A stretch of 60,242 nt of DNA from Acetofilamentum sp. (GTDB lineage Bacteria; Hydrothermota; 32-111), in contig DYMB01000009.1 of NCBI GenBank assembly GCA_020721805.1, positions 1 through 60,242 on the forward strand, read 5' to 3'. The notes beneath the pieces are model-generated. The model was not told where the DNA came from and did not search any database. It saw only the letters and a program-made list of their open reading frames with translations. Positions 782 through 2,119 of the stretch are shown piece by piece (within the stretch, counting starts at the first letter, position 1; each line of letters opens with the position of its first letter). The translations under genes and the position numbers were made by a program.

Positions 782-857
782 TGGTGGAGGTAGTCGGATT
801 CGAACCGACGACCCCATGCTTGCAAAGCATGTGCTCTCCCAACTGAGCTATACCCCC
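782..857 (-). tRNA. tRNA-Ala (UGC)
   Basis: A 76-base cloverleaf reads on the minus strand with acceptor stem GGGGGTA paired to TACCTCC (one G-U pair), D-arm AGCTCAGTTGGGAGAGC, anticodon loop CTTTGCAAG with anticodon TGC, T-arm GTCGGTTCGAATCCGAC and an encoded CCA end. It is the 3'-most gene of the 16S unit. The stop codon of the outer-membrane protein gene lies three bases upstream of its 5' end, which is unusual for the second tRNA of an Ile-Ala pair. Confidence 0.97.
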
Positions 858-860
858 ATT

Positions 861-2027
861 TTAGTATTCATATCCAAAGTATGAAAGACCAAAGTTTACA
901 CTGATATTGTCAACTGTTTTTCCAGAAATGATAAATGGAATATTAACTAAATTTTTTGAAAAATCAAGAGATATTTTTAAATTTTCAACCTTAAACATAA
1001 TCCCTAATCTTCCATCATAATCAAAATAGGCTGTCTTTACAATTGGATTTAAACGCTCTGGATATTTTTGATTCTTTACAACATATGAACCTGAAAAACC
1101 AACGTTTAAATCAAAATGGTTTGTTAAATAAAAATTTGTCCCTATAGTGATCTTTGGAAAAATATTTATCTCATCAATTGAAATCACTTCAACACCTGTT
1201 TCATATTTTATCAAATTCAAATAAGATATTTTTTTATACTCTCCAGTTATGTAACTACTATGATAATTGAAAGATTCAAGTCCAACAAAAAATAGAACGG
1301 ATAATGTATCCACTCCATTATTATAAATATCCCCCTTAAAATTACCACTCTCAATTATCTGGTAGGCATAACTTTTACTTTTAAAATTGAATAATATTCC
1401 GATAAAATTCTCATAAAAATACTGTTTCATCCTAAACTTTAATCCAAATCCAAAAGGATTTTCACTTTTTACAGAATTTGAAAGATTCTCGGATGAAACA
1501 TTCAAAATACTTATTTCAGGTGAAAGATCAAATTTCAAATTTTCTGAAAAATCTATGGTAAAGGATGGGGATAATTCATAGGATGAAAGTTCTTTTTTTG
1601 TATTTGAGAATGGAGATTCTTCATCAGTATAACTTTCATTTATTGAAAAAAATTTAAAAGAAATTCCAGCATTTATTCTATTGAAATTTTTTGCAAAATA
1701 ACCTGAAAATTTTACGGGTTTTATACTTTTATCAAAAATAGTTGTTATGAACTCATTCTCTATGGAATCTGAAAAAACCTCAACACCAACTCCAACTCTA
1801 CCAGTTTTGTTTTCAAAAAACCCATATGAGAAAATTCCTCCATTTAAAAAATCAAAAGAAAGATTACTTTTGAAAAGTTCATATTCAAGGTTTGATGATG
1901 GAAATGTTGTTAAAACTATTGGATCAGAAGATATAAGATATGGTGATTGTAAAGTATAAAATTCGGTTAAAGATGAATAAAGTAAAAAGAAGGTGAGAAA
2001 AGATATTATGAAAATAATTTTTTTCAT
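861..2027 (-). CDS. Predicted outer-membrane beta-barrel protein, encoded between tRNA-Ile and tRNA-Ala
   Basis: A 388-residue protein with an N-terminal signal sequence (MKKIIFIISFLTFFLLYSSL) and many alternating hydrophobic/polar strands rich in F, Y, S and N. It ends in aromatic residues (NFGLSYFGYEY), as expected for a barrel inserted by the BAM machinery. I do not recognise a specific family; it loosely resembles barrels of FCB-group bacteria. Its ATG lies 15 bases after the encoded CCA of tRNA-Ile and is preceded by AAGGATG as a ribosome binding site; its TAA ends three bases before tRNA-Ala. It has no obvious promoter or terminator of its own, so it should be transcribed with the rRNA unit. 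An alternative role, such as a porin or fatty-acid transporter, cannot be judged from the sequence. Confidence 0.8.
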   Translation of the reverse strand: MKKIIFIISFLTFFLLYSSLTEFYTLQSPYLISSDPIVLTTFPSSNLEYELFKSNLSFDFLNGGIFSYGFFENKTGRVGVGVEVFSDSIENEFITTIFDKSIKPVKFSGYFAKNFNRINAGISFKFFSINESYTDEESPFSNTKKELSSYELSPSFTIDFSENLKFDLSPEISILNVSSENLSNSVKSENPFGFGLKFRMKQYFYENFIGILFNFKSKSYAYQIIESGNFKGDIYNNGVDTLSVLFFVGLESFNYHSSYITGEYKKISYLNLIKYETGVEVISIDEINIFPKITIGTNFYLTNHFDLNVGFSGSYVVKNQKYPERLNPIVKTAYFDYDGRLGIMFKVENLKISLDFSKNLVNIPFIISGKTVDNISVNFGLSYFGYEY

Positions 2028-2042
2028 TTGAACATCCTTTTA

Positions 2043-2119
2043 TGGTGGGCCTAAGTGGAGTTGAACCACTCACCTCACGCTTATCAGGCGTGCGCTCTAA
2101 CCAACTGAGCTATAGGCCC
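2043..2119 (-). tRNA. tRNA-Ile (GAU)
   Basis: A 77-base cloverleaf on the minus strand: acceptor stem GGGCCTA paired with TAGGCCC, D-arm with GCTCAGTTGGTTAGAGC, anticodon loop with GAT, T-arm GAGTGGTTCAACTCCAC and encoded CCA. It lies 62 bases downstream of the 16S 3' end, as in classic rRNA spacers. Confidence 0.97.

Follow-up and report, generated by a model that had tools for sequence, protein, structure and literature searches.

A gene for a predicted PopA-like outer-membrane protein between tRNA-Ile and tRNA-Ala of the 16S rRNA unit in candidate division WOR-3

A gene encoding a predicted PopA-like outer-membrane protein (OMP) is located between two essential tRNA genes, tRNA-Ile and tRNA-Ala, downstream of the 16S rRNA gene in a genome of candidate division WOR-3, a bacterial phylum without cultured members. 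This gene is likely to be a long-standing resident of the WOR-3 16S unit, made from the rRNA promoter, with its mRNA freed by maturation of the adjacent tRNAs. The DNA analysed (the window, 60,242 nt) is contig DYMB01000009.1 of assembly GCA_020721805.1, Acetofilamentum sp. (GTDB Hydrothermota; 32-111), and represents the complete contig C38 of a 1.70-Mb WOR-3 MAG (74 contigs, 99.8% complete), the sequence relatives of which are likewise candidate division WOR-3 MAGs. The conservation search covered 60 relatives, all within WOR-3. The window genome (G000) belongs to family f1 (five genomes), with f2 (four genomes) as its sister family.

All genes of the locus are encoded on the minus strand. 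According to the gene calls, the 16S rRNA gene (2182..3721) is followed by tRNA-Ile(GAT) (2043..2119) and, beyond the ORF, by tRNA-Ala(TGC) (782..857), both with encoded CCA. Each of the two is present in one copy among 45 tRNA genes, and the 16S rRNA gene is single as well. The ORF (861..2027, 388 aa, ATG start) codes for a signal-peptide-like N-terminus and, in the predicted model, a helical plug and a 16-strand beta-barrel resembling PopA. Only 15 bases separate tRNA-Ile from the start codon, including the Shine-Dalgarno sequence AAGGATG (2033..2039), and tRNA-Ala begins 3 bases past the stop codon. Gene order, coordinates, both gaps and the ribosome binding site are exactly as given in an earlier note on this DNA. 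The standard 16S-23S operon implied there does not hold for the window genome, in which 23S and 5S are not part of the same unit as in the canonical 16S-Ile-Ala-23S-5S operon; the 23S rRNA gene is encoded on contig C62, unlinked to 16S, and preceded by tandem promoters and a BoxA of its own. An insertion carrying a LAGLIDADG-like ORF of 167 aa (L005, G000:C62, 91-594), probably a homing-endonuclease intron, splits this 23S rRNA gene. The OMP gene is under purifying selection (pN 0.28 versus pS 0.67 against G001), as are the ORFs within f2 (pN 0.12, pS 0.58); conservation and selection rule out a chance ORF or a pseudogene.

A search of related genomes for the same insertion, as the earlier note had suggested, revealed the Ile-OMP-Ala sandwich in 16 genomes of 8 families. 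One homologue each, directly after tRNA-Ile, is encoded in the four other f1 genomes (58, 33, 32 and 27% identity), and tRNA-Ala follows the ORF in all f1 genomes, although in G003 it is broken by an assembly gap. In G002 the order is 16S, tRNA-Ile, ORF, tRNA-Ala, 23S, 5S. All four f2 genomes harbor an ORF of 385-389 aa at the same place, and the sandwich is also found in f8 (G026), f11 (G018), f14 (G024), f15 (G027, G036), f21 (G046) and f26 (G054). The 16S rRNA gene is located immediately upstream in f1, f2, f11, f14 and f15 where the contig permits, and not in f21 and f26. One-sided linkage was detected in four families, with tRNA-Ile-OMP in f17 and f23 and OMP-tRNA-Ala in f3 and f12; contig ends in f8 come on top of these. 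MAG contigs frequently terminate at rRNA. The sampled tRNA-Ile/tRNA-Ala loci of f4, f5, f10, f13, f18, f20, f22, f25, f30, f34, f36 and f37 do not contain such an OMP gene. Since a dozen WOR-3 families lack the arrangement, it is not required phylum-wide; in the families without the OMP the tRNA genes are dispersed.

Other protein genes are located at these loci. Two tandem PopA-like OMP genes lie between tRNA-Ile and tRNA-Ala of G036 (L094:3750-6329); the second groups with the proteins of f3 and f12, which suggests that the tandem is old. In f7, the 16S rRNA gene and tRNA-Ile are separated by a small barrel-like ORF, and another barrel-like ORF, of about 330 aa, begins within about 10 bases past tRNA-Ile (L102:342-929, 1026-2042; also L140, L141); in a profile search with six targets only, these ORFs scored mostly weakly against the OMP family. 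A lipoprotein gene of about 275 aa begins 21-56 bases past tRNA-Ala in all four f2 genomes (L045:1669-2496, L046:5236-6072, L047:1292-2122, L048:1341-2162) and may be a second envelope gene on the same transcript. A RAYT/REP-like transposase gene is found after tRNA-Ala in G004 (L042:10215-11090) and G003 (L043:1575-2357), the latter with several more barrel-like genes between the transposase gene and 23S. In f10 (L064:1058-1363, L071:1547-1882, L084), tRNA-Ile is separated from 16S and has a small lipoprotein gene behind it, as though transcripts with tRNA-Ile often included envelope genes. An NFACT/RqcH-like gene starts 7-40 bases after tRNA-Ile in f30 and f33 (L153:900-2324, L100:4085-5479). 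G007 includes a classical 16S-Ile-Ala-23S-5S contig (C155, L050) besides a divergent second 16S on C86 (L049); both are probably contamination, and the classical tandem was left out of the counts.

The outer-membrane barrel proposed in the earlier note is supported by structure prediction. In the single-chain AlphaFold model of the f1 protein, based on 18 homologues (pLDDT 85, pTM 0.81), helices are placed at the N-terminus of a barrel of 16 strands, a further helix lies between strands 3 and 4, and the last strand is preceded by a 20-residue loop (357-376), which contains a conserved PFIISG stretch and where pLDDT is partly <50. The f2 model (pLDDT 82) likewise has 16 strands. The plug and loop 2 helices of the f1 model span residues 20-25, 36-39 and 88-98, and their f2 counterparts 43-47, 50-54 and 93-98. 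Among PDB structures, PopA took ranks 1-3 with the f1 model (E 5.5e-8 to 1.5e-7; TM up to 0.57/0.64) and exceeded the other barrels in TM-score; it was also the top PDB match of the f2 model (E 7e-9). The N-terminal helical plug and the helix in loop 2 are described as features of the PopA superfamily (PMC12228718), and both are found in the models, as are the 16 strands, with PopA as the closest solved structure. With PopA (Bd0427; PDB 9ga1/9gf0; NCBIfam NF053618) the window protein has in common the predicted 16 strands, plug and loop 2 helix, and possibly the hydrophobic oligomerisation loop 8, here of about 20 residues, but only about 10% sequence identity. The family profile matches PopA chains at E 1e-5, whereas the window protein alone had no match in Pfam, NCBIfam or PDB sequence searches. 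Members of f8, f11, f14, f15 and f21 match NF053618 at E 5e-19 to 3e-6 with 27-69 bits, below the curated cut-off of 150 bits, and are therefore not assigned as members, nor is the unmatched window protein. Bdellovibrio has PopA as its major OMP, a protein whose pentamers trap lipids and for which no porin activity was found; among Bdellovibrio strains, its homologues are likewise major OMPs (PMC12228718). A radial oligomer with a central lipid chamber is a mark of the PopA superfamily. Because PopA has this role, the resemblance supports the view that the WOR-3 protein may be an abundant structural OMP.

Protein identity between the families is near 15%. The f1 alignment and that of f8, f11, f14, f15 and f21 are matched by hhalign with a probability of 96.8 (E 2.3e-10, 358 columns). 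For the f2 ORF, no significant sequence homology to the remaining families was obtained with hhalign against f1 or against A4; the evidence for its putative homology to them consists of position and length, together with the 16-strand topology and the predicted model. In a tree of 37 homologues, which includes several long branches and in which deep placements are unsure, most families cluster and tRNA linkage amounts to 3 changes. A single ancestral insertion, followed by breakage, would be the simplest reading of this tree, though not a proven one.

The tight sandwich is kept across 8 families in spite of this divergence, the Shine-Dalgarno sequences are strong, and tRNA and OMP gene often stay together once they are away from 16S. 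In two families in which the module has left the 16S gene (f21 and f26), a new TTGACA promoter is located about 40 bases upstream of tRNA-Ile. These observations, together with the role of PopA homologues as major OMPs, argue against the gene being a passenger, cotranscribed by descent and coupled to growth without benefit, with a minor OMP as its product. Such a reading, with which the splitting or loss of the module in many families and the homologues without tRNA neighbours in f19, f27, f29 and f33 would agree, is rather unlikely.

Expression from the rRNA promoter, as put forward in the earlier note, is supported by the anatomy of the locus and its conservation across families. Upstream of 16S, and also on the minus strand, are two promoter-like sites found in a promoter scan, the upstream one (3888..3915, TTGACA-16-TATATT, 11/12) confirmed on re-reading the sequence, and the main one (3817..3844, TTGACA-16-TATAAT with TG extension, 12/12) with similar sites at the same place in relatives. 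The leader includes a BoxA-like antitermination element, TGTTCTTTGAAAA (3777..3789), which is also present in the leaders of G004, G007, G008, G018 and G027. The 5' arm of a 16S processing stem, ATGTGCACTACCAC (3760..3773), pairs perfectly over 14 bp with the 3' arm, GTGGTAGTGCACAT (2134..2147), in the spacer ahead of tRNA-Ile. None of 2000 mononucleotide shuffles reached such a length, and 16S stems of 13-15 bp were found in G000, G004, G007, G008 and G018. The 16S gene of the window thus combines strong upstream promoters, BoxA and a leader-spacer stem, as expected of an rRNA unit. In G002, too, 23S is preceded by a TTGACA promoter and a BoxA-like site, although there it comes after tRNA-Ala. 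Since 23S has its own promoters and BoxA, 16S-Ile-OMP-Ala most likely forms one transcription unit and 23S-5S another.

In line with the earlier reading that promoter and terminator are not visible before the ORF, the scan gave no minus-strand promoter-like site of at least 10/12 from the 16S promoters to past tRNA-Ala, and the sole minus-strand terminator-like site is inside the ORF, the yield of terminators being no higher than in shuffles. A promoter of the ORF's own within 16S or tRNA-Ile, with regulation apart from rRNA, is very unlikely on this evidence: the 15-base gap offers no room for it, and of two 9/12 sites, the one next to the ATG (2032..2005) would place the transcript start within the ORF. 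The other lies inside 16S (3110..3083); this site, or one for a non-sigma70 factor, the scan covering sigma70-type sites, would be the candidates for such a promoter. An assembly chimera, in which the OMP gene was joined into the rRNA locus, is exceedingly improbable and the mis-assembly considered in the earlier note is excluded, for although rRNA loci assemble poorly in MAGs and the contigs of several relatives break at these genes, the same order is found in the separately named public assemblies UBA6260, UBA2202, STE_119 and CSMAG_462 and, with diverged sequence, in 8 families.

For the OMP gene as a resident of the 16S unit, we infer cotranscription, the order of processing, abundance and growth-rate coupling from the arrangement of these elements. 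Transcription from the tandem promoters would proceed through BoxA, 16S, tRNA-Ile, the OMP gene and tRNA-Ala and yield one precursor RNA, from which 16S would be released via the processing stem. The OMP message would be freed by 3' maturation of tRNA-Ile and an RNase P cut at tRNA-Ala and would carry its own strong ribosome-binding site. That tRNA processing may create the ends of the OMP mRNA is suggested by the gaps of 15 and 3 bases, and strengthened by stop codons abutting or inside tRNA-Ala in relatives. The OMP is probably abundant, and its output would follow the promoter that governs ribosome synthesis and thus come under growth-rate control, as fits a protein of the envelope for which demand rises in step with growth.

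Most relatives have an SD-like sequence in the corresponding position, and the SD is strong nearly everywhere. The distance between stop codon and tRNA-Ala varies. It is at most 3 bases in five genomes (3 in the window, 0 in G001 and G002, 1 in G018 and G046), and longer gaps range from about 10 (G026, G009) to about 267 bases (G024). In G054 (f26), the stop codon shares one base with tRNA-Ala, the first base of the tRNA, and in f2 the stop codon TAG corresponds to tRNA-Ala nucleotides 8-10, an overlap of 10 bases. An RNA molecule of f2 or f26 that is cut first at tRNA-Ala has no complete stop codon. Judged by known ribosome footprints, the acceptor strand of tRNA-Ala must lie under a ribosome halted at such a stop, and termination and RNase P cleavage would therefore be mutually exclusive on one molecule. 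Since many relatives have the stop codon at the edge of tRNA-Ala or within it, the terminating ribosome and RNase P would compete for the same bases. A more speculative extension, which we regard as doubtful, is that tRNA maturation in WOR-3 times the synthesis of a major OMP. A proper OMP stop would then be possible only while tRNA-Ala is still attached; RNase P cleavage would end OMP translation, a terminating ribosome would delay maturation of tRNA-Ala, and envelope growth would be coupled to the supply of both rRNA and tRNA.

Parts of this arrangement are known from other bacteria. The thrU-tufB unit of E. coli carries an mRNA and tRNAs on one transcript, which are parted by RNase P and 3' processing. 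It resembles the WOR-3 locus in being a tRNA-mRNA cotranscript, but contains no rRNA and encodes a translation factor. Buchnera and Rickettsia have split rRNA units, with 16S and 23S separate and protein genes before 23S cotranscribed with rRNA; these are housekeeping genes, and neither a tRNA sandwich nor a surface protein is involved. The rrs-rrl spacer of Borrelia (mag, cof) contains protein genes and both spacer tRNAs between 16S and 23S, but these genes encode a DNA glycosylase and a hydrolase and are located beyond the tRNAs, whereas the OMP gene of WOR-3 is sandwiched within a few bases (PMC2688082). Neither tRNA nor rRNA is mentioned in the main text of the PopA paper (PMC12228718). 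No earlier report of the arrangement was found in the open-access full-text literature, a scope in which an older report may be missed.

The question of how envelope growth keeps pace with the making of ribosomes is open, and is usually answered by separate regulators. If the proposed reading is true, one promoter would drive both the ribosome and an envelope protein by anatomy alone, across much of the phylum. Where the last codons of the message share bases with the start of the tRNA, the locus would represent a natural case in which translation termination is pitted against RNase P processing. For surveys, the arrangement means that 16S-23S spacers can contain conserved protein genes.
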